From NCBI GenBank assembly GCA_947034885.2, contig OX344749.2:44855682-44919681 (forward strand): DNA of 64,000 nt. Direction: 5' to 3'. Origin of the DNA: Thuidium tamariscinum (Eukaryota > Streptophyta > Bryopsida > Hypnales > Thuidiaceae). Under the pieces are notes generated by a model. The model did not search any database, was not told the origin of the DNA, and saw nothing but the letters and a program-made list of their open reading frames with translations. Positions 1,424-26,102 of this stretch are shown here, one piece after another (positions within the stretch are counted from its first letter, which is position 1; each line of letters opens with the position of its first letter). The position numbers were made by a program, and so were the translations under genes.

Positions 1424-2123
1424 GGTGATTGCAAAAAACACCTATTGTTTTGGTTGTGATTTCATGATTTTTCAGGAGTACTTTAAGATTAGAAAAATAA
1501 TTTAAAAAAAAATTATATACACCTTTATAAGGCAAAGGTAACCACCAAAGGAAATGTATAGAAAAATTCTCTAAGTAGGAGACCTAGAAAAGTGCCAAAT
1601 CTCAAAAAAATACATACTTTGATGTTTTAAATAGGAAAAAAAGGGAATTTAAAAAAATAAAATTAAGAATAAATCATTTGCAATAATTTTATAGAGATGT
1701 CCACTCACAAAAAAACTCATCAAAATCATTTTTTACATGTTTCAAAATGCAAGTAGAAAGAAGCTTGCTTTAGGGACTTCAACACCACATTAAAATAATT
1801 ATTAAAAAAATTCTTTTGGTCGTTATCTATAAGTCTACTAGAAGATCATCTCCTCCCAATTTCAGCTCAAAATTTGTTTTTTTGGATGCTAAATAGAACT
1901 AAGACCATCCAAACTAGTAGGTGTGACATTCAATTGGGGTCTATTTTTGGATAATTAACTATTTTAAAAATTATAAATTTTTTTGGCAAGGTGTATAATA
2001 GTCATGGGTACCTTCTCTATAAATTTTGAGTCATTTAGAGCCAAAACACAAAATTTATAGCCAAAAGAAAATTAGCACACATCGTGTGATGCAAAACAAT
2101 ATAGGTGTTTTTTGCAATCATCC
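1424..2123. mobile_element. Non-autonomous TIR element, family M1, copy A (700 bp)
   Basis: The element begins GGTGATTGCAAAAAACACC and ends with its inverted partner (GGTGTTTTTTGCAATCATCC). It is flanked on both sides by TACAA (1419-1423 and 2124-2128), a 5-bp target-site duplication. It has no coding capacity. Part of the interior (a recurring AAATTCTCTAAGTAGGAGA block near 1565) is shared with copies B and C, so this is a diverged member of one family. The superfamily is uncertain because 5-bp duplications are unusual for common plant DNA transposons. Confidence 0.75.
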
Positions 2124-2533
2124 TACAAGGCCTACATAGAGACAAATGTGAGAATGGAGAGAGTAACAAAAGTGTCTAGGAAATTTAGGATTTAAAAAAA
2201 ATTGTTTTACCAAATCCATCTAAAAGAAAATTGGAAATTTGTCAATTATTTTATAGAAAAGAAAATTGAAAATGGTATAAAATGGCAACTTTATCTTATT
2301 AACCATTGCCATGTGAGTGACATGGTTGGAGGCCAAAAATTTACATTGATTAGCATTTACCAAGTTACCTTCCCCCAAATGATCTTGTGACAAACCAATA
2401 ATATTCAGATGCACTGTTCATTTCCAAAGTAATCAAGAAAGTCATCCATTGGCCTTTTTTTAGGATTCAACATCCTTAAAAGGTTATTTGGCTTACATTT
2501 TATTGGAACTTTTGTACATTTTTGCTTATAAAT

Positions 2534-2600
2534 ATCTTTTATATCTATATCTATCTATATGTATATCTATATATTTGTGTGTGTGTGCACGCGTGCACTA
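2534..2600. repeat. Microsatellite (TATC/TATA then TG/CA)
   Basis: Imperfect TATC/TATA-type repeats are followed by a (TG)n run and a short CACGCGTGCAC palindrome. It lies between two M1 elements in gene-free DNA. Confidence 0.7.
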
Positions 2601-2758
2601 TTTCCATGTCCTAGTTGAATAATGTGCATGGTTAGATTAAATGTTAAAAACGATGCTTTGTCTAATTCAACATGGAATGATAGGTTTAATGAAATGTGGA
2701 ATTTCCTAAACACTTGGTTTAAGTAGAAATGAATTGAACCAATTTCAAATTGATTGTA

Positions 2759-3491
2759 GGGTCATTGCAAGAAACGCCGTCCATTTTCCGTAGCGTTTCA
2801 TAGTACACCCCCTTTTTCTTTAGGAGTACTATTTAATTAGAAAAACAATTTTTAAAAAATATGAAAAATATGAACAATGTATACACCTTAAAGAAGAAGG
2901 TACCCTACGGGAGAAAACCTTAGGAAAATTCTCTAAGTAGGAGAACTAGAAAAGTGGAAAATCTCATGAAAATGGGCATAATTACATTTTAATTTGTAAA
3001 AAATAGGAAAAGCTCTTTTTCTCAAATCTAAAAATTGGCCATTTGAGAAGAGTTGATGGTGATGAGATTTCACCAAAAAAATAATCTTAGCACTATTGTC
3101 AATGGTCAGGAATTGCGTGCAATTGGAGTGTTGTTTGCATGCATGTGGAGGACATAAAATAATATATTTTTAGATTCTCTTTGGTAGGAATATACTTTCC
3201 TACTATGCAAATGAACCATGAAAATTTCAACTTTAGATCATTAAATTTGGGTACTCCTAACGTAGTAAAAACCCCTAAACCTCAGTTTGTGACAAATTAA
3301 CAAAAATTAATTTTAAATATAAAATGATTTTTTTTAATTTATGAAAAATAAGGGATGTAAAAACCATCAAGTTAGAGAGTTCCAATAATTATTTCATATT
3401 CTCAAATATTTTTATTCAATAGTTATAGCAGAAAAGAACAATGAAACTCCAATTGTGACAGGAAATAGGACCGGCGTTTCTTGCAATCACC
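2759..3491. mobile_element. Non-autonomous TIR element, family M1, copy B (733 bp)
   Basis: The termini are GGGTCATTGCAAGAAACGCC and its inverted partner, ending TTTCTTGCAATCACC. The flanking direct duplication is TTGTA (2754-2758 and 3492-3496). The interior carries the family block 'AGAAGGTACCCTA ... AAATTCTCTAAGTAGGAGAACTAGAAAAGTG' (near 2892-2955), which is found again in copy C. It has no open reading frame of interest. Confidence 0.8.
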
Positions 3492-3496
3492 TTGTA

Positions 3497-5300
3497 AAAG
3501 AAGGTTGCAATATTGTAAAGTGCAATGTTATTTTGGATGAAATCAATGAGAAGTTATTTAGAAGAAAGATTGATCAAGAAACATTCTATTCACCATCTAG
3601 ACTATGGATATCTAAGCACTTTGAGATAATTACTAGAAAAAGGTAAACACAACAATGTAAAAGTGTCATTTGCACCCTAGAACTACATAGTCAATAGCAT
3701 TGACATAGTAGGAGTAGAAACCATTAAAATAATTGAAAGTTCTTAATGACAAGCTCAGAGAATTTTTGTATTGTTTGTGTCTTTGTGAATTTTCAAAGTC
3801 AAGATTAGAAAAAACTTAAAAGTATTCAACAAGAGCGTGTTTGAAGTGCCTTGCGAAAGATCCAAAACCATTGACTAAAAACTTTACAACCACAAAGCAC
3901 CATATGTGAAGTAGGCATCATTCAAAGCAATTGGTTTGTAGTTATATTGGTGACATTTCAATACACACCTATTTGATAGTCATTGGGGCAAATGGATTGC
4001 TTTAGCAGTGTTTTCAAAAATTGAAGCTAATAATTTTGAAAATCACATTATGGACCACTGATATGTCTCCATAGTCGGTTCCCAATTGTGGTTGAGCTTC
4101 TACCAATGTTCAAAAGTGTGCTCCAAAAATGTAAACCCTTATTTTTATTATATTTAAACTTGCATTTTTTTAGGTCCAAGATGACCTTAAACTGGTACCC
4201 AAATTGAATGGCGTGGGTGCATGTTCAATACCTAAAACTGATAAGTTCTTTACCTTGTCTGAAATTAACTCCTCTTCTTGATGAATCCCTTGCAGTGTGA
4301 CCTGAACACGCTTGAGTCAAATAAAAGGGAATGAAATAAAAACTTGCATTTTGAGTGCATTTAGCACTGTTTTTAGCAACTGCAGCTACTTCTGAATACC
4401 ACATTGTTGTCACTGCGTGTCTGCAAAGTGTTCAAAGACGTGACTAAACTTGTACCGCCCCCTTTTTTTTTACAGCTCCAACAATGTCAAACCAACTTAA
4501 GCTTGCTGTGTTAAAACTTGAAGTATAAGCTGATTTACCAGCCAACAGTTTTTAAAAAAAATTTACCAGCCGACAGTGTCTTTATGGAGCTGATTCTGCA
4601 ATACCACATTTGGGGTCACTATGCCTATTCATGGTGAAAGAAGGAATTCCATTTATCACTTCAAAGATCAGATTTTTCTTTATCACAAACCCCTTTTTAC
4701 AGTGTCCTAAAACCAATGTTTGGGGTGACCTGCGGGTTAGATCATTGTTAGCTAGTAAGTTAGAATTGGAATAAACCTGGTAACAATTTGAAAACATTGG
4801 GAAAAAGTATGGTGAAAAAGTATTTGGAACTTGAAAAAAGAGTCGAGAAACAACTGGACTCGGTCCTTGAAACCCGGTTTAGGCGTTCAGCAGGGGAATT
4901 TGAGGACTGGTAAAACTGAGAAAACGCTACAGTAGTCCAAACTTGCATGTGAAGCTCCATTGAGTGATTTTCTGGGCCTTTTGTTTTTAGCCCCGCAGCT
5001 AATTCTGAACCTCCGGCAATTGAGAGTTGCGAGTGCGGAGACCCCGGCTAGCTCTGCCGCCATTCCATCGACGATCGGTCGCGTCCCCCCATTCAGTGCG
5101 TGCTCCGCATTGCAGGCGATCCCTTGGGCAGCAAGAGTCCGAGCCTCCTCATCAGCTAGCTAGCCGGCGCGGGCAGACAGACAGGCGGGGTCGGGGTCGG
5201 GTCGGAACAATAATTCTTCCGTTCCGTTCGGCCCCAACGGAGCAGCAGCAATTCGTTGCTTCTGGGGAGGCGTGTAGGCCGACATGGCGGCGCGGGTGGC
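3497..5300. other. Spacer, no gene; GC rises from about 4960
   Basis: The AT-rich part to about 4950 has no supported gene. A short direct repeat (TTTACCAGCC followed by AACAGT or GACAGT) occurs at 4535 and 4562. From about 4960 the composition becomes GC-rich (runs such as GGGGTCGGGGTCGGGTCGG near 5187), marking the proximal promoter of the NAC gene. Short reading frames at 4960-5535 on both strands look like by-products of this GC-rich tract. Confidence 0.5.
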
Positions 5301-5334
5301 AGCCTCCTTTTAATTTGGCCTCCGCCAGAGAGGC

Positions 5335-5343
5335 TTTTATAAG
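5335..5343 (+). promoter_or_regulatory. TATA box, probable NAC promoter
   Basis: TTTTATAAG sits in a GC-rich context. A pyrimidine-rich stretch (CTTCTACACTTCTCCTTCA) begins about 25-30 bases downstream, suitable for transcription initiation near 5365-5375. The next coding gene on this strand starts at 8991. Confidence 0.5.
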
Positions 5344-5369
5344 CCACGCCATCCTCTTCTGCACACTTC

Positions 5370-8300
5370 TACACTTCTCCTTCACAACAGCGAGCTCCTG
5401 GCGCGCGCTTCCCTTCCCTCCCCTAGCCTTGCTCCTCGACCGCCCGCGGCAAGCGATCAAGAGGACGTACGTGCAGACGATCGACTCGACTTGAAGGACC
5501 GGTGCTACCTTACGAGAATTGACGGTAACGATCATTAGCTCGATCTCTGTATTCGTTGTCTGGATTTGGGGTCACATTGCTGGTGAGCGTTGGTGGATCG
5601 CATGCATAGTGTGCTTGTAATTTGGTACAGTTAGCTAGAGCTAGCTTTTTGTTTGTGAGTCCATGTCAGTTCCGTGGTCAGTTCATGGGATATGGGAAGC
5701 GAAATTAAAGGCCGTCGTCGGCCGGGTTGATACAGTGCCCGCATGCATGTGGCGACAGTGAATTGTGGGTGGTAGTGATTGTTGATTAAAAGGCCCGGAG
5801 ATGCCTTGCGTGCTTCAGGAATGAATGCAACTCTGCGGATTGTTCCAATGTTGTGAATGGACCGCGAGTTCGTCGTCCAGTGGGGCGTGGTGATCAGGAC
5901 CGTGACGTACCCTTGATTCGATCGCTTGAATTAGTTGAGTGGCTACTGTGTAGAAATCTTGTCGTGTTGCCAAAGGGGTTAGTGCTGAAGGATCGGATGG
6001 TACGTGGGGGGCGTTTGAGAGGCTTTTAATTCGTGAGCTAGGGCTTGCTCCAGCTGTGAGTGTGGCTGGGTGATGTGCATGTCTTGGCTTTTCTCGTAAG
6101 TGTGTAGCTAGTGACAAATTTGTCAAGAGAGATGGGTTACTGTATTCGTTTGCGACTCCTCAATGCACGCTGAAATTTGAGCGCGGCTTGGGAAACCAGA
6201 GCAATGAGTTCTGGAACGTGGATTTTTTTCCCTAAGTGTTTTCAAGGCTCTAGTTTCGAGATTTCAGAACTCAGGACATCTTGGATGCTCTCTGGTTGCT
6301 TGTCTCGTAGTGTTCGCATTATCGAACTCTGAGCTCTTCAGTTTGTTCGATCGCAGACATGCACGGGAAGGAATAGTGGGTAGCTTCTCGGACACTCCAT
6401 CCAGAGCACTAGAGCCAGCCCACTTTGCTTCCCGTGTCAGACTGCATCTCTCTCCATCGATCCCATTTGGATTTTACATCGACCCCTTTGCGTCTGTCTG
6501 CGGTAAGCCACGTGTTCCAGCGATAGCCATTATAGTGCTAGCTAGCTTCTGAGTTTCAGCATCTCCTTACTGCTTGCGTGGTTGTATACATATATTTTAA
6601 TATGTTTCAGTCTCTCGCTGCATTCGTCTGAGCTTGTGCACAACGTGCTGCAACTGCGACACAAGATTTTCCCTGAGAGCTTTTGTGAACGATCGATCTA
6701 GTAGTACATCTGGCTCTTCAGGACGACGTAGATCTATACAACTCAAGTAGTACTTACTCCTTGTATTATTCGGAGTGGGAATAAACCGTGTTTGAAGTCA
6801 TACAATGCGAATCGCATGCAGCATCAAGTCGAACGATCTGCGATCTGCACTAGAATATCATTTCCAGCGCGTCTCGACACTAGGTAGTGCGACAAAGCAA
6901 CGCTTTCCATGGAGTTTTTTAATAGGGATGCTTCTATTGGTTGATTCTTGCTCTCGCTTGTGGCGAACTCAAGATCAGGGAAGCTGTATCGAGTGACGTC
7001 CAGGTTGTAGAACGGAGTCCAGTACTTGGTCGGTGCGTGCGTAAGCGTTTCTGTCTGTCTCCAACTTTGGGTAGCACTTACTAGTGAATCATAAACTCTA
7101 CTCCGCCATAAAGTGCCTCCCGGCCCCCAACTGAAGCTAGGTAGAGTGACGCTCAAGGAACCTCCAGGAAGTACGAAATTCCTTTCTTTTTCCTTTACCG
7201 GCTTTCATTTCTTTTTCTTTCCAGTCCTGTCCTCTGGATTCCCTTGCTTTTCCTTTCCTTGCCTTCGATTTCCTTCCCTTGAAATCGTTTCCTTGGTCCC
7301 TTGCGCCTGGGTTTCTGACAGAACGGTAGTCTGTACCAATTACCATTTCCTGCGCAAAAGTAGGGCAACGGCTGCGTAGTCTCGGGCCTGAAATCCATCT
7401 ATTGTGGCCTGTCTTCCAGCTTGAATTTGTACGTCCTTTGGAGTTTCGATCTTCCGATCGAAGCGGGTCCGTGTTATGGTTCACACGTTATATACATGGT
7501 TCTGGACAACCATGTGCTACCTACCGTGCGTTCCCTAGCACGCCAGGACATCAGTAGCTCTGCTCTGATAGTGAAGTTTTTGGTATCAAATTCTGTGTGG
7601 TCGTGGTGCGTGTGTGAGTGTTAGTGGTGTTCATCAATCTCACGAAGTCGGGATACATAACAAGAGAATATCACAGTCAAGGACGGATTCCTACCTTTCA
7701 GGTAAACCTCTGGACAGCTGTATGTAGATGTGGCAGATCAGTGCAGAGACGGAGAAGCGTTTTGTTCCGGGAATTCGGTTCGGCTGACTCAGTCAGATCT
7801 GCATATTTTTCAGGGGTTTCATTTTTGTTTCTATTTTTTTTTTTTTTTTTGAATTATTTTAACGGCGGAGAGATTCGAAGGTGAGACTGAGAGGTGACCA
7901 TGACTTGAATTGCCTGGTGCTGACTTGTGGTGTGGAGCTAGCCCTCTGAACACTTTATTATTAGTGACAATATTGAGGTTCGCCATCCTGTACAATGGAC
8001 GGGGGGTGGGGGTGGGGGCGAATCCTCTTGTGCGTGTTCGAATTCCTGCCTTGGGAGGGGGGACCGGGGCGTTTACTCACTCACAGTTTGCTCATGAAAT
8101 TGATTAGTCATGATGCTAACTTCCAGAGCAGTTTCCTTGATTGCGGCATGAATAGCTTTCGGCTGGAATTCCGACTGGCGTGGCCAAAGAGCTAGAGCTT
8201 GAGTGCATGTGGTAATTAGTTCGCAATTTGGTGTAAACACCGACCCCTGGACCCTCCCGAAAGTTGCAAAAAATTTTCAAGGACATGCACCTGTCCACGG

Positions 8301-8967
8301 TCAACCTCATCGAAAGCTAAGATTTTCATGTTCCAATAAACGCGTTTCAGCTTCTAGCGTCCACGTTGTTTAACACCCAAATTAAGTAGGGCAGTGTAAA
8401 AGCTAGGGAAAAGGTCGAGAAAAAGTGGCCAAAAGATAGTATTTCTTGCACTTTTTTTACTCCTTGCCCGACTGAATAAACTGTCGAGGATTTTCAGTTG
8501 CTTACCACCCGCTATACTAGGCATCTAGAAACTGCCTGTCTGGTAATCTGATTTGCTTTGTACTAACTATAGGACTCCATATGATAAGCTCGTGGGGTAA
8601 CCCAAATTTGGGTCCTCATTGACCTGCTGATGCACTCCAACAATAGCTGGTGTGCATGCTAGTCTGCAAAAGGGCCCCAGCTCATTTTTTCTAAAGCTGA
8701 TAGTGCCCAGCCAGGGACCAAAATATCAGCATAACCACCACTTCTTCCTGAGGAACCTTTTGATCGATCAGTCAAGTTTGTTGCTTACAGTACATAAGAT
8801 TTCCAGTAGGTTTCAAAGTTTGGAAGCACGATGAAAACCTCCCGTCCATCCTCAATCGGTGAACTTAGCCATCTGTCTGTTTGCCCCAGACCCTCACATA
8901 AGAACGTTGGAAGCTGGGCTTGTCTTGTGTGCTGATCTTGTGTGCACCGTGTTTTTTCTTGGTCCAG
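5370..8967 (+). other. Probable 5' leader: exon ~5370-5524 plus 3.4-kb leader intron 5525-8967
   Basis: From the presumed start (~5370) to a good donor (GACG|GTAACG, GT at 5525) the leader contains no ATG. A strong acceptor (TTTTTTCTTGGTCCAG, AG at 8966-8967) lies only 23 bases before the NAC start codon. The ~3.4 kb between them has stops in all frames, a 15-base T run near 7840 and no recognised protein, so a long leader intron is the simplest reading. Additional leader exons, or a separate non-coding transcript, cannot be excluded. Confidence 0.4.
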
Positions 8968-8990
8968 TGGTGAAGAAGAATTAAAGCAAG

Positions 8991-11539
8991 ATGAGCCAGC
9001 TGACTTCCAGAGTTCCAGTAGGATTTCGGTTCCACCCCACGGACGAAGAATTGGTGGGATACTATCTCCCGAAGAAGGTCAATGCCAGGAAGATCGACCT
9101 GGATCTCATCCGGGAGCTTGATCTGTATAAGTTGGAGCCATGGGATCTCCAAGGTGAGCACTTCGCTCGAAAACCAGTGTATAGCAGTTATTGTTGGCTG
9201 GGAGCCTCTTCTAGATTCAATCAAAGCTAATCTTCGCAGTTCGTGATATCAAACAAAGCCCGAGCTCTTTCTTTTTGAAGATAGTTCTTTATGAGTTGGA
9301 TTGTCGTCGTTTTATATTGTTATTATGGTGGTCGGTTTCAGAGCTCTGCAAGATTCCGTCGTCCTCGTCGGTCAGTGTATAGTACTTGTTGGGAGCCTCT
9401 TTTTAGATTCAGAAAAGGCGTAGCCAGACTCTTTAAATTTGAAGCTAGTTCTCAGTGAATCCGATTGTGGTTAGTGTTGCGGTGGTGGTCGGTGGCTGTG
9501 CGAGATCTCGGCGTCGTTATTTAATTAGTGTGTAGTACTTGTTGGGAGCCTAGACTTCTAGATTCAAACAAATCGTAGACTCTTTAAATTTGAAGCAAGA
9601 TAGTTCTTAATGAATTCGATTGTTATTGTGGTGGCGATGGTCGGTTTGAAGAGCTGTGGAAGATCCAGGCGTCGTATCGTAATATATTGTTGGGAGACTC
9701 TTCTATTAGATAATATCAAAGCTAAGACTCATAAGATTTGAAGTTCGCACTGAAGTAATTAGATTGTTGTTACTGTTGTTATGGTGATCGGTTTCAGAGT
9801 TCGATCTGCAAGATTCAGTCATCCTCGTCGGTCAGTGAGTAGTACTAGCTTGTTGGCAGTCTCGATTAGAGTCAATCGAAGGTGTGACTCTGTAATTAAC
9901 TTTGAAGCTAGTTCTAATTGTGATTGTTGATGTTGTTGTGGTTTCTGTAGAGCTTTGCAAGATCCAGTCTTCCTCGGTAGCGGTGTCCGTGGAATTATCG
10001 AGTGAAAAGCCGAGCGACTGCTACTTCTTCAGCCGCAAGGACAAGAAGTACCCGACGGGAAACCGGGCCAACCGCGCCACGGCGAAGGGTTTCTGGAAAG
10101 CCACGGGACGCGACAAGCCCATCAGCGCCAAGCTGCACACGCGACTCATCGGGATGCGCAAGACGCTGGTGTTCTACCAGGGAAGAGCCCCGCATGGCAT
10201 CAAAACCGAATGGATCATGCACGAGTTTCGACTGGATGACGGACCAGGACGACCGGCTCACGTACGAATCTTCGAAAACCTTTGCTTAGCTTGATTGGGA
10301 TCCAAAGTCCGTGGATTCAATTCCTCCTCTTGCAATCCATCAATGCCTAGCTAGCTAGCTAATTCCAGGCCGGGCTCCAGTTAGCTAGGTTCTTCATTTC
10401 ACACCGCTCCTCAGCTTCAGTGTTGGTTAGCTTCTGAATGATAGGCTTTGTTCGCTTTGCAGGTATACTCGCAGTTTGTATCTATGTATTCTTAGCTATA
10501 GTCGTCGTTTTGATCGAGCGTCTCTTCTTAGAGTATATACATAGATCTTCAGTTTGAATGAATTAATGCCTTCGATCTCAAAGTCATTCAATCTAAGTTT
10601 TCATGCACGTATCCTTAGTCCTTGGCTCTGTTTGGGGTCTCCTGTGAGTTTATGTTCTCAGAGTCATAGTTGTAATGAAGGGTCGTCGTTCCTCCGTACA
10701 TATCCTTAGGTTATGCTCTCGATCACTTTGACGTCTAGAGTTCTGGTTGTCCAATCCTTCTCCAGTTCTACCAAACTAACATGAATCCAATATGGTAGGA
10801 AATTAATTGTTTTGAAGCTAGAACGTACCACGTGGACCGAACTTCATTGTCAAATTGTAATTGTTTCCAGGAGGACGGAGGCTGGGTGATCTGCCGCGTC
10901 TTCCAGAAGAACAAAAACCTCAAACTGAAGCTCCACGAGCGCGTCGTTTCCTATGGGGAGCAGCAACTCGGTCTTCTCCCCGAGACCTTAGGCTCCCAAG
11001 ACATTCTTTCCACAGGTCGTTACACCTTCTCCGAGCACCACCAACTGTACAATCAATACACCAGCCCATCAATCAAGCAAGAGATTATCAACTTGGACGA
11101 TTACCAAAGCCACCACCACTTACACGGAAGCTTCCCCGTGACTTTCGCCCACAACTCGACTTCTATGCTGCCCTCGTCGACGACCTTCGCTCGAACCTTG
11201 AGCTTCCGAAGACCTTCCGAGGAGGAGGAAAACGGCGGTTATTTCAACATCCCAGAGAGCTTCCAGCAGGCGGACAGTTTCCAGAACGAAGCCACCACCA
11301 GTGGCAGCGATGGCGAAGAAGCCATTCTGGGAGTGGAGAATGTGGACTGGAGCGCACTCTTGCAGGAGTCTCCTAAAACACCAGGCGGCGGCTCGGGTGT
11401 GAATTCCATGGAGCATGCACGAGGCTCGTCGGGGAAGATGAGCGCCACTGATTCGGGGCAGCAGATCAAGCGACAAAACTCGGACATTTTCTCGTCCATG
11501 GAGCTTTGGAATTACAACCCTGTTGCACAACAGCTGTGA
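8991..11539 (+). CDS. NAC-domain transcription factor, VNS (VND/NST/SMB)-like
   Basis: Coding exons are 8991-9153, 9951-10261 and 10871-11539, giving 380 residues; all junctions are GT-AG and in phase. Exon 1 carries NAC subdomains A and B ([17 protein letters not shown], then [21 protein letters not shown]). Exon 2 carries C and D ([56 protein letters not shown]). Exon 3 begins with subdomain E ([14 protein letters not shown]). GRAPHG-K-(D/E)WIMHE is typical of the VNS group, nuclear regulators of water-conducting, fibre and root-cap cell differentiation. The remaining ~205 residues are a diverged, serine- and glutamine-rich activation region with an aromatic/acidic patch ([10 protein letters not shown]). 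An extra ~12 residues rich in S and V follow ELCKI before YFFS, where VNS proteins usually have a short G-containing linker. The promoter is inferred at 5335, with a long leader intron. Target genes cannot be deduced from the sequence. Confidence 0.9.
9177..9990 (+). repeat. ~153-bp tandem repeat in NAC intron 1 running into exon 2 (5 units)
   Basis: Units start with (T)AGTACTTGTTGGGAGCC-like sequence at about 9177, 9373, 9528, 9677 and 9835. Each continues through TTTGAAG(C)TAGTTCT, GATTGTTGTT and GGTCGGTTTCAG to a copy of the exon 2 start (AGCTCTGCAAGAT-type). The exon-start copies fall at 9342, ~9497, 9652, 9798 and 9951 (the real exon 2). Spacings are 155, 155, 146 and 153. The first unit is longer by about 40 bp. 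The copies at 9342 and 9798 keep an intact CAG acceptor. Confidence 0.8.
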
Positions 11540-14500
11540 AGCGAAGATGGGATCGATCGATCGAGCACAAATTTCCAGTTCAAATTGTATATCATCTATC
11601 GATCTCTATGGATCTCCATGGATGCTCAATGAGCTGAGACGTACTCCGTCGTCGTCACAGATGCAACTTGTACAGAAAACAAGCAACATTGAGTCGATCT
11701 CTGGAGGGATTCCATGGTGAAGTGTGCCTTACATTCAAGTTCATTTCAAGACATTCTTTCTCTTCTCCAACTTGGTGCTGGAATTGAAGATTTATGGGAG
11801 CTAGCATCATCGTGTATACAGAAGAAGCAACAAGCTTGGCTTGAAATTAATAGCAGTGAGCCTGGTTACTTAATTGTCAGTCTTAACTTGTCGATCTCTG
11901 TGCGAGCTTATAGGAAGCTCCTGAAGGGATTAATTTAAAAGGTAAATTGGAGCAGGATGTGGTAGTATGGTGTGTTGGTAATTCAAAGGTTGAATTTAGG
12001 TTTAAATGCATGCATGTATTAGTGTTCCCCTTGATAGAGGACTCCGTTACGTTGTAGGGGTTCCGGGGAAGGTACAAAATTAAATTTTACAGAGCCGGTT
12101 ATTGAAAGTGGTATATATACAGGTTGGTATACTGCAGGTTGGTATTCAGGATTAATTAGATTTTGTTCATAATTTGTACACAGAAACACACGATCAGTGC
12201 ATTCTCGATCGATCAGCGTAGAAATGAATCATACCTCGTGATTTAATTTGAAGGTTGACTTCCAGGATACATACAGTGTCTTTTTTTTAATTACTTATAG
12301 TAGCGTTTTCCACACATTGTGGGAAATTGTTTTTGTGTTCATGTGTTTTTGTTGATCGGCCGGTTTCGATTGATGGATGTTTCGGGATGGGCTGGATCAT
12401 GGTGTTCTGTAACTATTGTAGAGGTTGTGCACTTGTGATCTGTTTGCACTGCTTAATTTAGGTTTACACGTAAATGAATGTTACTCTTGTTTCAATTCGT
12501 AAATTAAAACAAGATACAACTCAATCATCACCAAGTGATGGATAGAAACCTGTGGCTTGATGTTATTCAATTCTTAACCTGACTTGAAAGCATTCTTAAA
12601 GACTGCCTGGGAGGAACAAGTTTTAATTTCATTCAATCATAGTCTGCATCAATCTTAAGCATCTAGCTGAGGTGTGTGCACTGTATTGGATATCTAATGT
12701 CACGTACGTCGTAACATGTCTGTTGCTCAACCGGATGAATTGCTTGTCAAAAATCACATAATCACTCACTGGCAATCGATTAAGTTCATGATTTTTCTTT
12801 CTCCCTCCGCTTAAAAATCATGAACTTACCGAAAACATTGTTGAAGAATTAATCAAACATTAGGCACCTCCTTTTTTGGAAGAAAATGCTTTGAATTTGT
12901 TGATACATGTCTCTTCAATTTGACAAAGACCCACCTACAACTGGTAACCAATGTGGCCCGAGCATGATTATCGATATCGCTACAGGCCTACAGTGGTTCT
13001 CCTGTTACTGCACATGACACTGATTTGCAAAATTAAAGACACATGAATCCGTAATGTGTTATTAAGAAAAATGACTGAAATATCTACTTAATTTGTTGTA
13101 GATTTGAAGTCTAACTTAAGTTTCTAGTGACACTAAATTTGCTCTCCCACTTCAAGTCAAGATCGAGTTCTCAATATTATGAAGAATAGCGGCACCTCCT
13201 GCTTGTATCACTTTCATTCAACTGCCGGAGGTCAGCAATTCGAGAAACGCGTCGGCCGACTATTGCGAGAACCGTTGTTGCCTATTAAGGACTTTTTACC
13301 CATTGTGGACTCCCAGGAAGGAGCCCATTACAATTTTCTTCCAGAGACTGGGATTTTGGCCACAATCAATGGCTTATCTAACTCGAATGGGGTGATTGGT
13401 GACCACATAGGAATTTTCAGTTTTTCAGTGTTAATTCACGATAAGAAGTGACTTTTTCAAGCCTTCTGTGTTAGAAAATATTTTGACTGCATTAGGTGAG
13501 TAAGATGACCATTATGGATATAATTTTAGTTGGTTTTGGGTAGTGTAGAAACCATGATGGGTAGAACACTTCAAAAATTATTCAGCGAATCTCTGGAACT
13601 TCAGTTTGGCAGAAGCTAGCTTCAATCTTTGAGTTTAATTCCATGACCTTCGTTGTCTTTGAAGTTTGAAATGACACCATGTGCGCTCCTGAGTCCTGAC
13701 GTACTCAGCTCAGCACTGCAACATAAATCACTTCACATGAATTCTTGGACAGCGAAAATTGTGCTACCACAGTAAGGTCATAGTCATAGTGTCTTCTTAG
13801 GATATTTTGTTTGCCGGTTCATTTGAAGGAAAAGCCGATTTTATTTCCAAAAACTAGAGGAATTCTTGGTGCTGCCAACTAGAAAAACAGAAATCCCATT
13901 TCTTCAAACGGAGTACCAAGATCATTAGCCAAGCGGTGTGCGGCTTGAAGCTTGTTGTTGAAGGTATATGAGAAATGTGCACCCATAATTGCCAACTGAA
14001 ATGTAGCCATTCGATCTGGTTGCGCAACCTTTGCCATAATTATGATACTGAGTTTGTTTGAATGCTTTTTTCTGTGATATCTTCTCGCAAATGTATATGA
14101 GAAAATTGTTCATTTTCTATTGATGACAGGTTCCCAATCTGAACCCATTATTTTGCTATCAGGGTACCAAAATTTCATTGAAACGGCGGTATTCCACAAA
14201 CTTGGCGACAGGGCTTTTATTTTTCTGGCTTTCTGCTGCCAGATTGCACCCACAAAAATGATTTGGCTAAAAAAAGCAAAAAAACTGCAAATTAATTCAC
14301 CTGAAAACTTTAAACTAAGAAGAAGTCTTGAATGAAATTATCAATTTGTGGAAGAAAACATAATTATGGATATGTGATATGTACATTGTACAAATGTGAT
14401 ATTTTTTATCCAATTTGTAGATGAATGTTGAAATTTGAAGCACCAATCAATCGTTTTATATTGCCTTTTAGGCACTTCTTAAAAAAATGAAAAATAAAGC

Positions 14501-15970: not shown

Positions 15971-16650
15971 CCCAGGTCATGGATGTAACGTTCAGGAGAG
16001 CCCAACCTCCAATACCGTATTAACGTGCAAATGTTTCCTTGCAGAGATTTTCTCAAAAGTGTTAGTAAAAGTAATGCTCCCCCACAAGCAATACTAATCC
16101 AACATAATACTATCTAGCCGGTATTTATACACCCCAAATCTTTAAAAAAACAAAAACCAAGGTCATGGATGAGACGTTCAGGAGGGCCAATGTCCAGTAT
16201 CAACATGCAAATGGTTCCGCGTAGAAAATTTTCAAAAGCAGTAGAAAGCATAATGCTCTTCAAAACGAATTATCCACCATTGATACAAACTAGCACATAA
16301 TTATGGATACAGCCCCCAAAAAATTTGAATTCGAAAACCAAGGTCATTGATGTGTGAGCCTAAAAGTCTAGTTAGTAGTAACAAGCAAATGTCTCTGCGT
16401 ACAAAAATTCTCAAGCAGTAGAAAGAACAATGCTCCCCAAGATCAGTAATCCAACATACTTACAACCCAGGCAGATATTGTTGATACAGCCAAGAAAGGT
16501 TAAGAACTCAAACACCAAGACCATGGATATGAATATTCAGGAGAGTCAAATGAATGTACAGTATTAAACATACATACAAAGTTCGGCGTAGAATTTTCTA
16601 AATTCAGTGCAGGTTGTAATGCTGATATTAATCTACATTTGCAGTTAAAA
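15971..16650 (+). repeat. ~180-bp tandem repeat, 4 units
   Basis: Units begin with CCA(A)GGTCATGGATG-like sequence at 15972, 16157, 16338 and 16515 (periods 185, 181 and 177). Each continues with TTCAGGAG(A/G)G, a (A/C)GTGCAAATG-type block, a GTAGAA..TTTTC block and (T)AATGCTC. Divergence between units is moderate. The array ends about 170 bp before the stop codon of the minus-strand DUF1499 gene. Confidence 0.75.
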
Positions 16651-16817
16651 TAAACTCAGAGATCATGTCTTATCCTACCCAGCCATGAAAGAGAAAGAAT
16701 CTAATCAAAAACTATTCTCGAAGCTACCCCAAAAGACATCAGGAGGAAGGACGGCATTGTGTTGGTGGTTACCTGGTTTGTAATCATGATGATCTCCCTT
16801 CTACAACAATGCAGGTC

Positions 16818-19806
16818 TCAGTCTGGAACAAACTCTACTCCACTTTTGTAGTCAAAAGTGGGAGGTGGCTCCGGCCCAAATGTGTCCCACGGAGACTCGA
16901 TGAAGAAGAGCCGCCGCTGCCGGTTCCTCAGGATTGGGACCTGCGCAACAACGCAGTCTCTGTTGTCAGCATTATCCAGGTGCCCGGGATTCTGATCTTG
17001 GTAATTGGCGAGACAGAGATTATTTACAATTTTAAACACGGTTTAGCAAGGTTTTAGTTTGTGTTTTGGCAGGATTCTTTAAGTAAAACTGAAATTGAGA
17101 GGGTCTAGACAGCCACACAGAACGCAAACGGTATTCACAAGTAAGACCGTGTAAAAAACAAATTGACTGACTAATTTGAGTTGACGAGTTCAAGAACAGT
17201 TACGTTTGATAACTGTTCAAGGTTCAAGGTTCAAGGTTCAAGAACATTTACGTTTAATATTTACAACCAATCTGGTATTCCACTCCAAGATAGCAAGCAG
17301 CTCATGGTGTACCATGCACTGGTGTTTACAAATTAAATTTCTAACTTTTGAAGCGATTTATGATTAGGTAGTCAACAAGGTACCGTTACTCTTCTTAGTT
17401 TCTTGTCTGCCCCAGATTGCAAAATAAGGATTTTCCCTTCTTCACTGTTTAGTATGTGTGGACTTGTTTTGGCACGAAGTTATAAAGATTGACATCACTG
17501 GCAGTTGAATAACGGTATTAAAGACTCGAGATAAGTTTTAGGATCCAAGTTACTGCCAATAGCAAACACATCATATCTAGACTGTTTAGCCACTTCTGCA
17601 GAAAGTGGTCAGTTTCCCAGTCTTGTGTAAGTGAACCCACTCGGAGTTTGGGCTTTCGACTTGTCAATGACATAAAAACACAAGAATTTAAACTATGGTA
17701 CAGATCTGACGGGAAAAAAAATTCTGCTGAAAAAGAAATGTCATCATGTAAGTGATGAGAAAAACCTGCTCCCAACCCAGTTCCATACGCAGAGCCTCCA
17801 GTCGTTTGCCATTCCTGCCACTGTCTTTGTAATTCGTAGCACGAGATGCAGACCTCACATTCACAGTGGCATCCTCCGTGGGATCACTGAATAGGAACTC
17901 GACGTCGTCGCTAACACCATCCTCTCCTGTAAAAACCGCATAAATGTATCTGCGTTTCAAGGACAATCATGGTGAATTCATTAACAATCTTAACTGTTTC
18001 TATGAGTGCACCCATCTTTATGTTCATCTTACAACATACAAAAAAACACGATATGATTGATGTAAACTAAGGGCTTCAATTTCTTGAACTCAAGATGTAA
18101 GAGGATGTGTGTAAAGACAGTAAAGATGTCAAAGGATTGCAGCATGTTAAATATCTTGACACTTCCTTGGGCCCAAGGTTTTAGGTGCTGTATTTTGAAA
18201 CTCATTCACCTCACGGATATACGAGCCCTAAAATAAAAAGATAGACTTAATAACAACTAAAAATGTTGCAAAAAATCCATGTCGGAAGTATCAATGACCA
18301 ATTGACAGTCCTTGACAAAGAAATTGCTGTCCTTCAAGCTCGACAACGTAATTAAGGGTCATCACACTCCTTGAGAAAGACTCAAACAGTGATGAGTTTC
18401 GGTTGTATCTATCAGCAGTATTCATACCTCTCACTCTTTTCCTTAATGGAAGCTCCTGTACGCTGTAAAGCTTCCTGAAGATTACTAACCGCAGTCTTCA
18501 GTCCTCCTGGAAATTCCCAAGGTGCAATAAAGAAGTTCGGCCTGAGCACAAGAAATATTTACCATTATAAAGGCTTACAACAAGACAACAAAAGATTATA
18601 TCAAAACCGAATTCCTTGGAAAGATTGATCATCAATTTAACCTACAGCAATTTGTTACCAAATTGTACCTCAGGTTGCACATCACCTTAACCTAAAAGAA
18701 ATTGTTGCCAAAACGCAGTCCACATTGCACATCACCCCAGCCAAAAAAGAAATTGCTACAGAACTGCAGCTTGCATTGCACATCACCCGAACCGAAAACA
18801 AAATTTTCCCAAAATACAGCCCCACTTTGCACGTCACTCTAACCTAAAAAAAATCACTACAAGAGCAGAGCTCACATTGCACACCATCGTAACCTGAAAA
18901 AAGTCGTTACAAAAATAGAACTTTTAGATTGCATATCACCCTAACCCAAAACTTTTACATTGCACACCACCAAAGCCAAAAACAGATTATCACAAAAATC
19001 CATAAATCTCACATTGTGTATCACCTTGACCGAAGATGATTCGTTACAAATTGTCAAATACATGCATACCACATTACACATCACCTAACTTAAAACAAAC
19101 TTATAGAACTGCAGCTCACATTGCACAAATGCATACATCTCACATTGCGCATCACTTAACCTAAAACAATTCGTTAGAAATTGTAAAATGCATAGATCTC
19201 GCATTGTTAACCTAAGACAAATTGATACAAACACGAATAGATCTCCCAATGCACATCACCTAAACCTAAAACAAATCGTCACAAATTGTTACAGAAATGC
19301 ATCTCACATTGCGCATCACCTGAACCCTAGAACAAATTGTCACATAATGTTACAGAAATGCATCTCAAAATTGCGCATCACCTGAGCCCCCAAACAAAAT
19401 TGGTACAAAAATTCACCGCAAATTCCTCAAGAAAGCTGTCAAGAAGACGTCCCCACCTGTCGTCAAACGAGGAGACGCAATTAACAGTGGCACTACACGA
19501 GCCCAACGTATCGTCCACGACGCCAATGCAAGTCGAGCAGGTCCCGAGTTTCGGCTCCTCTTGCTCCGGCGTCCCTCGCTCCCACGGAAGCCAATTAAAA
19601 GGAACAGCACCACCACTACTCCTCAACTCTGCCGCTACAGCACACCCATGGAAACAGCTCAAGCTCAAGCTCACACTCACCACACTGGATATCAAAACGC
19701 TCACCCTCTCTGCTGACCTTTCCGAATTCACAATCGTCCCAATGGAGCTTGTGATCATCCTCTGGTGGCGGCGCTGCCACACAGAAGCTTGTGCAGCTAT
19801 CGCCAT
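16818..19806 (-). CDS. DUF1499 family protein, probably plastid-targeted
   Basis: Exons on the minus strand are 19806-19457, 18541-18428, a short exon near 18227-18215, 17926-17766 and 16940-16818; the product is about 253 residues. Exon 1 has a hydrophobic Ser/Ala-rich leader, then FNWLPWERGTPEQEEPKLG and CIGVVDDTLGSCSATVNCVSS. Exon 2 reads FFIAPWEFPGGLKTAVSNLQ. Exon 4 has DDVEFLFSDP and VRSASRATNYKDSGRNGKRL. The last exon has LRNRQRRLFFIESPWDTFGP. The CIGVVDDTLG, APWEFPGG, DDVEF and RSASR blocks are those of plant DUF1499 proteins (Arabidopsis At3g60810-like), whose biochemical role is unknown to me. Junctions 1/2 and 4/5 are in phase. The 2/3/4 junctions are not fully resolved: the conserved YIR reading of exon 3 needs one more base than exon 2 supplies. 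Either a small exon was missed, or the gene carries a one-base lesion. The start at 19806 follows an upstream in-frame stop. Confidence 0.8.
17213..17243. repeat. 7-bp minisatellite (GTTCAAG)
   Basis: Four to five perfect tandem units of GTTCAAG lie inside the last intron of the DUF1499 gene. Confidence 0.8.
18625..19400 (-). repeat. ~60-bp degenerate minisatellite filling DUF1499 intron 1
   Basis: The phrase CATTGCACATCACC(T)AACCTAAAA recurs about 13 times, for example at 18677, 18733, 18775, 18827, 18875, 18930, 19014, 19073, 19143, 19250, 19310 and 19372. Each is followed by an (A)CAAATTGTTACA(A)AAATGCA-like stretch. The array occupies nearly all of the intron between exons 1 and 2 (18542-19456). 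The copies closest to exon 1 (19250-19400) are the most alike. Confidence 0.8.
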
Positions 19807-21494
19807 TGTTGAGCAGATCGAACTTGGTGCAGTCCCAGTTCAAATACAGACAGCTTCAATTCTACCTGTGAGAAATGGGAATGACAAACATCGGATGGAT
19901 ATGCATGGGAGGAAATTGAATGCAATGAACAAGAGTTGGACTGAAATGAATAAATTGTCATTCACCAATTGCTTGTAGGTCATGTAGATTCAAATGACTG
20001 CAAATTCAGGGAGATAGCATGAAATTAAGCTTCGTTGACGGAGGTGAGAGAGATGAGCTTGCACTACAGTAAGAGTTTTGCCTTTGGTTTGTTCGTTGAC
20101 GTCCACGAGTTGTAGAACTGGATAGAGTTTCTCCATTGTGGATCACGCAGTGGCCTCGGAAGAAGGAACCCATTCCTTGGGGCTACTAATAATTGTCAGA
20201 TTTCGCAATTCCACATTGAAAAGTTGGAGGCACCTTTTTCTAGATTAAAACATATTCATAGTCTTTGAAATTGGAATTCATGTATTTTCATAAAAATAAT
20301 TAGAATTTTTGGATGAGACATGTAATTGCTATGAAATTTCTAAATGGAAATCCATTAGCCACTGAAATCTTGTATAGAGATTGGTCACAATGCCAAGAAC
20401 TAGTAGTCAACCAATTGCAATTAAGTATAAGAATAGTGTTTGTCCTTTAGTAGAGTTTAAGAGTAGAAAAAGACGTTTTGAAAATTCAACCACCTTAATA
20501 GAAGGACATGTTAAGTTTGACTTCATAAATTTGTTTAGCTTCAACACCCCATTCATTAGGCACACAAATGGAGAAAAAGACTTTATGCAAGTCTTTGGCA
20601 AAGCAAGGCACTTTATATTGTAGAAGACATCTCAAGCAAGGAAATTTACCTCAAGATGGTCACTTCTTCTTGGGCATCTTCCAAATAAGTTGTCTACTTT
20701 TGAATTTTGTCCTCTAATAGATGGAATTTGGCTCTTTAAAGGGTCATTTCCAGCTAGTTCCCCTTGCTATTCTTGTAGTAGTGAGGGAATGGTTGACAAT
20801 AGTGAGCCAATGTAAATGCCTAAAAAAAAATTTAATTGGGAGGGACCACTAAAATTGAAAAAAAGACGTTTTGTTTTGTTTTGTTTTTTCAAAAAGAAGA
20901 AGTGACATAGTCATCATCCAACCACATCAACTTTCTACTAATCTACAATTCCCATAGTTTTGTACTGCATAGAAATTCCTAGTCTTCTTTTCACATAAAT
21001 CTCCTCTAATGTATATTTGGAGTACCTTATTTAACTAATGCCTTACTCTACACAATATTTTCCCTTTAAAATAGTTATGTTCAAACACTATAGTGAACAA
21101 AAAATGCCTAAAGAATGACTTTTAGATTTATATAAAAACAAATAATATTCTTATTCATCTAGGATACAAATTTTTTTTATAGCCTAGTCTATCATTCTAA
21201 TTGCATTTACATCCACTGTATAAGGTAGAAGCATCCAAATGTAATACAATTTGTTTTCAAACATCCAAATAATGACCTAAATTTAAGCACAAGTGAACCC
21301 AAAGTACACAAGTGGGTTAGTGGGGTTCTAAGAAGCTATCATTTTTTCTAGAATTTGACAATTATCCATCCATGATCCATAATTAGAGTGTATTGCTTTC
21401 GGGTGTTTCCAGGCCTACTAGGTTGTAGTCTAGTGTTTATAGTAGGTGCATCTACATAGTTGTTTTCAAAAATTTGTATTGTATCCATGCAAAC
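19807..21494. other. Promoter side of DUF1499 gene, then AT-rich spacer
   Basis: 19807-20190 is the upstream flank of the minus-strand DUF1499 gene. Beyond it no gene is supported. There is a (TTTTG)n microsatellite at about 20869-20886. A short frame at 20381-20623 has no recognised domain. Confidence 0.5.
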
Positions 21495-21892
21495 TTAACC
21501 CCTAAAGGTTTTTGACTATGTTTCCACCAAAATCACTCCAAAACTGTGATTTTTAATACAAGTGCAATTTTTTTGAAAAAACAACATTATTTGACATATT
21601 TAACCATAGGATCTTGTAGTTAGGTGGTTTGAAAAGATGTGGAAAAAATTTCAAAAATTTCCACCGTGTAGATTGCAAGATATTACCATTTGAAGTAGCA
21701 AAAATCCTTTTTTATCCCTACAAAAACTCGGGCAAGTGCTCTTCACAAAGTCACATTTGTATGAAAAAATACTCAAATTGATGGTTACTCTTTGAATTCA
21801 TTTTACAATGCAAGTCGGCCATATACTCAAAAAATTTCAAATCATTTGGAATTGTGCAACATATAGGAAAAAAATAGTAAGTAGAAAGAAGT

Positions 21893-23152
21893 CCCAAGGA
21901 GGACACTTCCCATTTTTTAATAATCTACGTGCGGCAGAATATAGGGTACATTTAAATGATTTTAGGTAAAATTTATAAGAAATTTACATATAAATTAGGG
22001 GACATTAAAAGTAGCATGTCCTTTATAAGTAATATAGGGAACCGGAAAATATGGTCCATTAGAATTTAGGTAGATATAAATTAGGGGCAAAAGAATGGGA
22101 TCCTAGGAAAAAAATTTAGTAGGTTCAATTAATATTTATAGTACTAGTCAGTTACAGCTTAAGATATAGGTACTATAATGTATCTACAACTCATTAGGCA
22201 TTGTTGTATATCTACAGCTCATTAGGCACTGTGGTATATCTATAGCTCATCTACGGCATATCTTTAAGTCATATCTAACTCCATTGATGTTTGTAACATT
22301 AGATGAAATCTGAGGGCATTACAAGGCCGTTTCGGGTCTGTTCCCGAAACGGCTCCCAATGCCGCTATCCGTTGTCAGGCCGATTTTTTTTTATTTCTTT
22401 TATTTCTTTTTAATTTTTTTAAATGGGTCCTGGAATATGAAAATAAGTCCAAAAAAAATTTGAAAAAAAAAATTATTACGTGGCAGGGTCGCGACCACGT
22501 AGGATTCAAGTTCACAAGGCAGAAACTGCGTTCCCGCAGTCCGGGATCCCGCAGTCTCCTAATGCCCTCAAATTTCATCTAATGTCTGGTTGGGTGCAGG
22601 AGTTTATGCTGTGAACGACCTCTCTGAAGTTTAGGTAGCACCATGTCATAGAGCTTGATTTTGTTTTTTCACATGTGATGGAGGGCATTAGAACGACATA
22701 TTTCTGATGTAATTTTTTTATATGAGGCATATATTTGTGGTCATAGTTCACAAATGAACTTCATGTCTGTGTTTTTAAACACATTTTTGTCCCTAAAGTC
22801 TCTTCAATACTTTTTCAACCCTAATGTCTTGCTTTTCATACATGTATTTGTGTTGTATTTGTATTCATGCATTGTTATAACTTGAATCTTTTTTTCTATA
22901 AGGTATTTGTTAGTCACTTGTATTCTCATTATTTTTTTTGTTATTTTTTTTAATACAAAGAAAATAGCCTCTAATATATTCCTTTGGCCTATATATTATA
23001 AGTAATGATAGATATGATAATATGGGTAATTTTTTTGCTTTATGTAATAATAGGGGTCCTTTAAATGCTTTCTAGGAGATAAATAACCCCCCAAAAAATA
23101 CCCCACCGCCGCATGTGGGTCCTCCAAATACACAAGAAGTATCCCCCCTGAG
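21893..23152. mobile_element. hAT-like non-autonomous element R2, copy 1, nested in R1
   Basis: Termini CCCAAGGAGGACACTT and AAGTATCCCCCCTGAG are imperfect inverted repeats. The element is flanked by a perfect 8-bp duplication AAAGAAGT (21885-21892 and 23153-23160), the size produced by hAT transposases. After subtracting the 288-bp M2 insert its length is 972, against 975 for copy 2 at 48812-49786. A short tandem array (TATATCTACAGCTCATTAGGCA-type, about 33 bp, three units) lies at 22165-22262. There is no transposase. Confidence 0.8.
22297..22584. mobile_element. MITE family M2, copy 1 (288 bp), nested in R2
   Basis: Ends CATTAGATGAAATCTGAGGG and its inverted partner CCTCAAATTTCATCTAATG. 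The interior includes a perfect short hairpin CCGTTTCGGG..CCCGAAACGG (22327-22352) and an A/T-rich middle. A second, inverted copy is at 26308-26604. The target-site duplication cannot be told apart from the terminal repeat: TA with a preferred CAT_ATG flank is possible. Confidence 0.7.
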
Positions 23153-23715
23153 AAAGAAGTAGAAAATGCTTGAAAATACTAAATACTAAATATTTTATTT
23201 ATAAAAATGAAAAATGACAATCCCAATGGTTAAAATATTTTAGTAAAAAATATTCATTCAATGTTTTAATTTTCTTACAAAAATATTAAAAATTGAATTA
23301 GATAAAGAATTTCAAATTTTTTTTGTAGAGTAGAGATTCTATAACTACTTGCAAACTATTCCAAACTAAAATTCCTCACAATTTTTGACTCATATATCAA
23401 AATGGAATGATTCAAAGTTTTCCACATAGATAAAAATATAATAAAATATTTTTAATTTTTAATTTTTTTTAAAAACAAGTTTCAAAAAAAGGGTTTTTTT
23501 GCTGTCTGTATTGCCTAACGTTCAAAGGAAACAACATATCATGTCATAATTTTTTAATAATGTAGTCAAAAGTTATAAAAGTTGTTGGGCCTTGAAGATA
23601 CTCCTTGGACACATCTTGTGTGAAAATTTCAAAGAAAAAAAAAATCTCCATTTATAGTGAACTGCCTAAAATTACTATGTTGCCAAAAAATACAGTTCAA
23701 GGCTTTAGGGGTTGA

Positions 23716-24875
23716 AAAAGATACAAAATCAATGTTATTGGTTTCTAAAATATATTCTAAAAATCACACATCATTTTATTCTAAAGCTTCTCTCAACATC
23801 TACTAATCTTGAATAAGTGTCATATTGAAGGTTGATACACTAGTTGCCAACCATGCCTAGTTTTCATCAAGCAAGGTGCAAGAACCTATTTTTGACCAGG
23901 GACCCATGCCCAACTTATAGAGTGCAGCTATTTCCAGCCAAGAGTAGAATATATTTCCTATTAAAGTTTTAATTGTGTTTTTTCCTCCTTTTGAAGATTG
24001 GGCCCAATAAGATGATGACTCATGTCCAAAGTAGTCAGCAAGAAAGTAGGAAGTAGTGAGTGGAAAAGAATCTAATCTATGATTGAAATCAAAAGAGTTT
24101 AGACATTGGCTATTAGTCCAATAGATTTTTGGCTCCCAAAAATCATAGTATTTTTAATTTTGGGATTAAAACTCTGAAAAATTTGCATTCTCTATATTTC
24201 CTATTTTTCTACATGGCAAAAAATTACTTGCCTTATATTGCTCACAATTTGCTTGAAAATTGCTCAAGTGATCAACTATAGGTACTTCTACCTTAGAAGT
24301 GCAATATTTCCAATCAAAGCTTCGAATTTGTTATTTGGTCTTGTAGAGGTCAAGATCGACTAAGAACAATCCCATGGGTCTACATGCCAAGTAGGGCGCC
24401 CAGGCAATTTCTAGTGTAGCTATTGGCAAACCATGGAAAGAGAAATTGAGCAGTACCCTACATCAACCATACTGAAGGACCATGCCACCTTGGAATTGCT
24501 TGTATGTGGGTAATCAACTAATCAAGCCCAACCATGTCACAAAATTCTTTGGCCCTGTTAGGCTAGGTGGTGTTATTCCGCCCAAACCATTTGATCCTTG
24601 TTCTAGGGCCGGGCGAGGTTATGTATTTTGGCTATCCAATTGTTTACATAGTTTTTTGGAATAATCAAGAAAGAAGATGGCATTTTTTTTTTATGGGAGT
24701 GAAATATTTGTTGGTTAATTTCTGCCATTGTTGTTGTAGAAGGATGGATGCATGGAGGGTGAGATTAGCTTCTCACATTCAGACAATGCGTGAAGATGAT
24801 GAAGAAGAGGATTTAGTCATCAACAATTATTTAGATCAGGTTAGTCTTGATTTGAATGTTCCACAGAGGTACAAA
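23716..24875. other. Spacer and left part of the PIF/Harbinger unit
   Basis: No supported gene. 24009-24260 matches 30448-30665 in direct orientation (see that entry). A weak frame at 24720-24876 contains an acidic stretch (DDEEEDLVINNYLDQ) that could be the N-terminal tail of the transposase pseudogene. Confidence 0.45.
24009..24260 (+). repeat. Dispersed repeat R4, copy 1
   Basis: It shares CAATAAGATGATGAC, AAGAAAGTAG.GAGTAGTGAG and CTCTATATTTCCTAT.TTTCTACATGG with 30448-30665. A shorter third piece (CTCCATATTTCCTTCTACGTGG) lies at about 31115-31170. Copies 1 and 2 flank the PIF/Harbinger unit as direct repeats about 6.4 kb apart. Confidence 0.55.
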
Positions 24876-25372
24876 TGAGAGGTTCTAAGCCAAGTCGACA
24901 AGGCAATTTTGAGAAGAGAGGCAAGAAGGGCATGAGAAGATGGTCTTTGATTATTTCGCAAAGACCCCAATTTATAGAGCATTACATTTTCATTGCTACT
25001 TTTTCATACGCAAGTGACTATTTTTATCCATCATGGCAAGGATTTGTGATATACGTATTTCTTGCAGAAACGTGATGCCATTGGGAAATTAGGCTTGTCT
25101 CCAATTCAAAAGTGTACGGCAACAATTTGAATGCTAGCTTATGGCATTACAACGGATGCCACTGATAAGTATTGTAGGCTAGTTGAGTCCACTGCCATGG
25201 AAGCTATGAAGCAATTTTGTATTGCCGTTCGTGTCAAGTTTGGTGGTCAATATTTGAGACAACTAATAAGAAGTGACTTTGAGAAACAATTGGCAATTAA
25301 TTTTGAGCTTGGTTGTCAAGGGTGTTTGCATCCATCGATTGCATGCATTATAATTGGAAATATTGTTTAGTA

Positions 25373-26102
25373 GGGACATTGCAAGAAAGACCAACCAATT
25401 TTGGTAGCGTTTTCCACAATACTACTGAAATTTTTGGGAGTATTGTATAATTAGAAAAGCAATTTTTAAAAAATGTAAAAAATATGTTCTATGCATATAC
25501 CTCTAAGAAGAAGGTACCCTAGGACGAAAAAGTGTAGGAAAATTCTCTAAGTAAGAGAACTAGAAAAGTGCAAATTTTCATGAAAATAGGTACTTTGACA
25601 TTTTAATTTGTAAAAAATAGGGAAAAAAATTTGTCTTAATACTAAAAAATTTCTATTTGGGAGAACTTTACGATGAAGAGATTTCACTAAAAGAATGATC
25701 TCAAAACCATCTTAAATGTTCAAAAGTATGCGCGCAAGGGAGGCCTGTTAGCGCACATGTAGAGGAAAGAGAATAATGATTTTTGAGATTTTCTTTGATA
25801 GAAACATGCCTAACTAGTATGGGAATAGGCCACAAAAATTTTAACTTTATATCATTAATTTTGGATGCTCTCCAGTACTAAAAACCTATAAACTGCAAAG
25901 TGTGACAAATTAGCTTAATTGAAATTTAATTATAAAATGTTTTTTGAAAATTTCTGAAAAATAAGGAATTTGATTGTTGTCATATCAGACATCTTCTATC
26001 AAAATTTCAAGTTGATATGGTTCATACTTTAAAAGTTAGAATCAATAACAACTCCGTCATTCAAAGTGATGCAAAATAGTACCAGTCTTTCTTGCAATCA
26101 CC
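25373..26102. mobile_element. TIR element M1, copy C (730 bp), inside the transposase
   Basis: Termini GGGACATTGCAAGAAAGACC and GGTCTTTCTTGCAATCACC-like inverted end; the flanks are TAGTA (25368-25372) and CAGTA (26103-26107). The interior block with AGAAGGTACCCTA and AAATTCTCTAAGTAAGAGAAC is shared with copy B. Excision of the element plus one flank joins KYC to VAWQG in the correct transposase frame, which confirms both boundaries and the 5-bp duplication. Confidence 0.9.

Follow-up and report, generated by a model that had tools for sequence, protein, structure and literature searches.

M1, a high-copy family of large non-autonomous inverted-repeat elements with 4-bp target duplications in Thuidium tamariscinum

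A 64,000-nucleotide stretch of the genome of the moss Thuidium tamariscinum (contig OX344749.2, positions 44,855,682 to 44,919,681; hereafter, the window) carries three related insertions, here named M1 copies A, B and C, which share one orientation and terminate in inverted repeats. An initial annotation of this DNA had described them as a three-copy inverted-repeat transposon family with 5-bp target-site duplications, a length that suggested an unusual or uncharacterised mobilising enzyme. The locus raises the question of which duplication length M1 elements actually leave, how many of them the genome holds, and what kind of transposase could have moved them. Our results indicate that M1 is very probably a high-copy, non-autonomous terminal-inverted-repeat (TIR) family, corresponding to large miniature inverted-repeat transposable elements (MITEs), with 4-bp duplications, a reading that does not extend to the name of its enzyme.

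Length of the target duplication

Read symmetrically, the M1 ends have the form GGGTS-ATTGCAAGAAA, and a G-rich terminus followed by ATTGCAA-R-AAA is present at all six ends of the window copies. Left and right repeats co-vary inside each copy (A ...AAAAAACACC, B ...AAGAAACGCC, C ...AAGAAAGAC), as expected if one enzyme reads both ends. Full-length identity between copies B and C is 71%, and copy A is the most divergent of the three (53% identity with B and 54% with C in the three-way alignment).

Duplication lengths were read from two samples of the assembly (363.2 Mb, 19 contigs, eleven of which measure 17.5 to 54.2 Mb). With copy B as query, 45 matches were obtained from the best 40 of 6,339 candidates; 40 of these matches, including copy B itself, were full-length or nearly so. 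The first sample (n = 42) comprised 39 copies taken with 100-bp flanks plus the three window copies, with both ends set at five bases before ATTGC. An exact 4-bp duplication was found at these symmetric ends in 40 of the 42 copies. When 36 fixed combinations of end positions were tried on the same copies, the best counts were 41 for 3 bp, which is the inner portion of the same 4-mer, 40 for 4 bp and 18 for 5 bp, followed by 4, 3 and 1 for 6, 7 and 8 bp, and 0 for both 9 and 10 bp. Because all 39 first-sample copies resemble copy B, a second sample of mixed subfamilies was picked through the end motif from 20 hand-chosen stretches within the opening 2.95 Mb of contig C1. Of its 25 end pairs spaced 350-1200 bp, 13 had a perfect 4-bp duplication and a further 4 agreed at three of four bases. 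Perfect 2-bp matches were seen in three pairs, one of which was also perfect at 4 bp; 3 bp and every length from 5 to 12 bp gave none.

The 4-bp counts in both samples, set against a best count of 18 in 42 at 5 bp, lead us to reject a 5-bp duplication; the earlier length is an artefact that arose from slipped ends in three copies. In the window the duplications read TACA (copy A), TGTA (copy B) and AGTA (copy C). Copy A begins with A instead of G at its left end, and the last base of copy B on the plus strand is T instead of C (AGGTG for GGGTG); in both cases the changed base equals the adjoining flank base, which produces an apparent 5-bp match. In copy C the right end had been placed one C short, after CACC, and the 5-bp reading required one mismatch, whereas the CACCC end gives AGTA on both sides with no mismatch. 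If ends are left free to slip one base per copy, 25 of the 42 copies are readable as 5 bp, which illustrates how a small sample misleads. The matches in the window are more than chance, as 0.17% of its positions (327 of 189,450) show an exact 5-bp match at the spacings of the three copies. The tabulation of flanked copies that the initial annotation had proposed as a check on its 5 bp thus returned another length, with slipped ends in the window copies.

Nested insertions bear on the same length. L041, which lies inside another M1 element, is the only one of the 39 copies for which the flanks, once joined, can be aligned with a window copy through the junction, and its best score against copy C was obtained by removing 4 bp (314, compared with 309 for 3 bp and 307 for 5 bp). 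The target of L021 was itself an M1 terminus: its flanks, GGATGATTG and ATTGCAAGAAAC, share an overlap of exactly ATTG as judged by eye, and merging them there yields an ordinary M1 terminus. Copy C interrupts, as had been recognised from the outset, a transposase reading frame, which belongs to a decayed gene of PIF/Harbinger type (Pfam PF04827, Plant_tran). The Plant_tran profile fits best with 735 bp removed (77.4 bits, compared with 72.9 for 732 bp and 71.8 for 738 bp), so the reported restoration of this frame is correct; its use as independent proof of the boundaries does not stand, since the removal constrains nothing but the combined length of element and duplication and does not separate 730 + 5 from 731 + 4.

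Several observations weigh against a 4-bp duplication throughout the family. Two of the 42 copies (L010 and L038) lack it, and 12 of the 25 pairs in the second sample are not exact, some of these pairings being probably spurious. When the flanks of L041 were compared with copy B, 3 bp came marginally ahead (201, against 198 for 4 bp). Further, neither sample is random for M1, as 39 copies were drawn by the copy B query and the 20 stretches come from one contig end.

Family size, subfamilies and derivatives

The end motif GGNNATTGCAAGAAA has 12,381 matches in the genome (6,132 and 6,249 on the two strands), while its reversed control has 7 (2 and 5 by strand), an excess of ~1,770-fold. With two ends each, these correspond to at least ~6,200 M1 elements, and to more than that, since many copies have a changed end. 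The proposed transposon family is real and far larger than three copies, and the coordinates first assigned to its window members were right to within one base. Copy B belongs to a young subfamily, in which no fewer than 39 further copies, full-length or nearly so, share 94-98% identity with it. Across the genome, 1,335 matches were counted for a 30-base subfamily end and 111 for the 21-base end of subfamily B. The inverted repeat measures 16-21 bp across M1, and in the majority sequence of subfamily B it spans 21 bp with 20 of 21 positions matching. The 40 subfamily B copies differ from their majority sequence by a median of 2.7% (range 1.0-4.5%), and from each other by 0.3-8.7%; as these are the best-scoring copies, subfamily B as a whole is probably somewhat older.

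M1 displays the traits by which MITEs are recognised, namely short inverted ends, a duplication of fixed length, high copy number and non-coding sequence, and it is an abundant, partly young MITE family with several subfamilies. It resembles plant MITEs generally in these ends, in being AT-rich and non-coding, and in having thousands of copies and several subfamilies. At ~730 bp, however, it is longer than most of them (mostly <500 bp; PMC10741241), and no 4-bp duplication appears among the MITE classes listed in a BrassicaTED passage.

Elements measure ~0.70-0.75 kb, and palindromic derivatives of ~0.8-1.1 kb were also identified, the arms of which are inverted internal M1 sequence. In three of these (L050, L051 and L052; ~1,080 bp) one half matches the other in inverted orientation at 97, 94 and 84%, a likeness that falls to 79% in L059 (804 bp) and to just 64% in L062 (1,014 bp). 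Both ends of L051 correspond to bases 1-47 of copy C; its two arms align with bases 210-604 of that copy, in opposite directions. Within the three window copies, an internal 40-bp block has 35 of 40 positions invariant, a conservation that column shuffling never reached in 20,000 trials and block shuffling reached in 13 of 20,000. Nevertheless, the block was dropped as a generally hyper-conserved feature of M1: its 38-base core is recognisable (at most 7 mismatches) in only 12 of 21 elements, and has 15-18 mismatches in the remaining 9, which are other subfamilies and palindromic derivatives. An exact degenerate 31-mer of the block had no match in collections of genome contigs and viral contigs, and an Rfam scan of the whole window gave nothing at the gathering threshold.

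Inserts were also observed inside M1 copies. A subfamily A copy in L049 (3708-7398; G000:C1:829585-833275) is seemingly interrupted by ~2.1 kb that carries a psbO-like gene fragment (PF01716 MSP, spread over two frames) and a second gene-like segment, which are possibly captured gene fragments; the flanking 4-mers, CTTA and CATA, match at three of four bases. In L048 (400-2085), an M1 copy is split by a 1.7-kb insert that has CCCGGGTAGATCACT-type ends and, by eye, what looks like an ~8-bp ACTTTATG duplication; an inverted repeat of similar appearance (ACTCGGGTGGGTCACTT) lies in the window at 48811-49787.

Candidate transposases

The longest open stretch in the 40 subfamily B copies is 88 codons, which implies that these copies were moved by a protein made elsewhere, and the co-varying paired ends and constant 4-bp duplication suggest a DDE/D transposase with a 4-bp stagger. 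We therefore infer mobilisation in trans: a transposase supplied by another element would bind the M1 inverted repeat and cut the element out, presumably by cut-and-paste; the DDE/D enzyme would then attach these ends to target DNA at positions staggered by 4 bp, and gap repair would leave the 4-bp duplication.

No coding partner was found, which tells against this scheme. Within the window, a scan for GGNNATTGCAARAAA with at most one mismatch returned six places, which are the six M1 ends, and 10 more places had exactly two mismatches, with 9.6 chance matches expected overall; the window thus holds no longer partner with M1 ends. Three genomic searches covered end pairs in C1:1-2.95 Mb (100 listed of 12,381 places, and then 20 stretches there), subfamily B ends (100 listed of 111) and the 30-base end (100 listed of 1,335). 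No convincing coding element was present among the matches listed, and the listed end pairs included no autonomous M1 copy, that is, no longer copy of the kind anticipated by the initial annotation, with the same ends and a transposase gene. Four pairs of 2.4-2.7 kb considered as coding elements (L048, L049, L053 and L054) are apparently M1 copies accompanied by nested inserts or neighbours. Among the papers listed for 5-bp and 4-bp duplications and for Sola, no family was named for the M1 ends, and the end letters matched no paper; Repbase was not compared.

Like 5 bp, a 4-bp duplication lies outside the 2, 3, 8 and 9 bp usual in plant TIR superfamilies, and we weighed several sources for it. 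M1 may have been moved by a Sola transposase, most likely of Sola1 type, either resident in the genome or recently lost from it, an assignment we propose tentatively. Sola elements carry 4-bp duplications on their flanks, as M1 does, and are present in the moss Physcomitrella (PMC10741241), for which Sola1 is tabulated, as it also is for Capsicum (PMC9033089); among the superfamilies reported in plants, Sola would be the best fit to the duplication length. Given that plant Sola elements are already described with 4-bp duplications, no new lineage is required for M1. This fit is one of duplication length, and no transposase was seen in M1. No Sola transposase was found, with no homology search aimed at Sola, and the superfamily is apparently uncommon in flowering plants (PMC10741241). 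An enzyme from a superfamily undescribed in plants, or undescribed altogether, would agree with the failure to find a transposase with M1 ends and with the varied 4-bp duplications and GGG ends, which fit no common plant superfamily; we consider it doubtful, as Sola already explains 4 bp in plants and a missing partner is weak evidence when the search is limited. Similarly, it seems rather improbable that the M1 group, with its GGGTSATTGCAAGAAA ends, several subfamilies and 4-bp duplications, is the debris of an undescribed plant transposase lineage, one that would have been recently active given copies ~3% from their majority sequence. The uncharacterised lineage suggested initially as the mobiliser is neither shown nor excluded.

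A lineage of Mutator-like elements (MULEs) with an unusually short duplication is an unlikely source. The ATTGC core near the G-rich terminus resembles Mutator-type ends, and MULE/Mutator non-autonomous elements share the AT-rich interior of M1. The duplications of IS256/MuDR elements range from 4 to 10 bp (PMC10045372), but Mutator MITEs are given 9- or 10-bp duplications (PMC4077149), which no M1 copy of the 42 showed under any of the 36 end choices, and the M1 repeat is short. A MULE-domain search of the genome gave 33 matches, of which 30 loci were read with 1.5-kb flanks: none had an M1 end at up to 3 mismatches within 1.5 kb, and seven carried chance-like strings with 4 mismatches. In one MULE-type group (L070-L076 with L098 and L099; G000:C5:9099300-9107500), whose seven copies share 98-99.9% identity across 3.3 kb and are the most similar of any group, the inverted repeats reach at least 850 bp; the 8.2 kb examined contain no M1 end but stop short of the outer ends; other MULE groups were not followed. 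Ginger2/TDD-4 and hAT5 elements also make short duplications of 4 or 5 bp (PMC2836005, PMC10045372, PMC12730594), with 4-5 bp in Ginger2 (PMC10045372) and 5 bp in hAT5 (PMC12730594); nonetheless, Ginger ends are TG...CA (PMC10741241), unlike the GGG...CCC of M1, and M1 does not make the 5 bp of hAT5. Membership in PIF/Harbinger through a 3-bp TWA duplication was discarded, as M1 has a varied 4 bp. Finally, the length of ~730 bp and the earlier 5-bp count could recall solo long terminal repeats, which leave short duplications, of 5 bp in rice Copia and Gypsy (PMC8505701); the termini of M1 are GGG...CCC with a 16-21 bp inverted repeat, and not TG...CA, and its duplication is 4 bp, so that this origin is rejected on the ends and has virtually no likelihood.

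Features of the window and significance

The coordinates of the three M1 copies, of their duplications and of the interrupted gene are collected in Table 1.

Table 1. M1 copies, target duplications and interrupted gene, in window positions
Feature	Position	Strand	Remarks
TACA 4-bp target duplication, left of copy A	1419..1422		
M1 copy A, 701 bp, subfamily A	1423..2123	+	left end AGGTGATTGCAAAAAA, right end GGATGATTGCAAAAAA; left terminal G changed to A
TACA 4-bp target duplication, right of copy A	2124..2127		
TGTA 4-bp target duplication, left of copy B	2755..2758		
M1 copy B, 734 bp, young subfamily	2759..3492	+	right terminal G (minus strand) changed to A
TGTA 4-bp target duplication, right of copy B	3493..3496		
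Decayed Plant_tran (PF04827) gene, approximate extent	24744..27064	+	outer limits by eye
AGTA 4-bp target duplication, left of copy C	25369..25372		
M1 copy C, 731 bp, inside decayed PIF/Harbinger-type transposase gene	25373..26103	+	
AGTA 4-bp target duplication, right of copy C	26104..26107		

MITE-like elements occupy 22296-22585 and 26309-26602, both with inverted ends of CATTAGATGAAATNTGAGGGC type, and the latter seems, by eye, to be a second insert in the Harbinger-type gene that holds copy C. The window also includes a plant-type NAM-domain gene, a strong palindrome of 467 bp at 55403-55869 (176-bp arms, 96% complementary, CTATGAAGATACG ends), and three copies, one of them inverted, of another dispersed repeat family, 73-86% identical (21584-23673, 43200-44001 and 53890-54712).

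Taken together, our results correct a boundary slip that would have suggested a new class of enzyme: among three copies, two mutated end bases and one end placed a base too short mimicked a consistent 5-bp duplication. M1, as a non-autonomous family of thousands of copies, part of them young, is of modest importance in itself; a plant MITE group of this size with 4-bp duplications would offer a useful starting point in the search for an active plant transposase, whether Sola-like or new.

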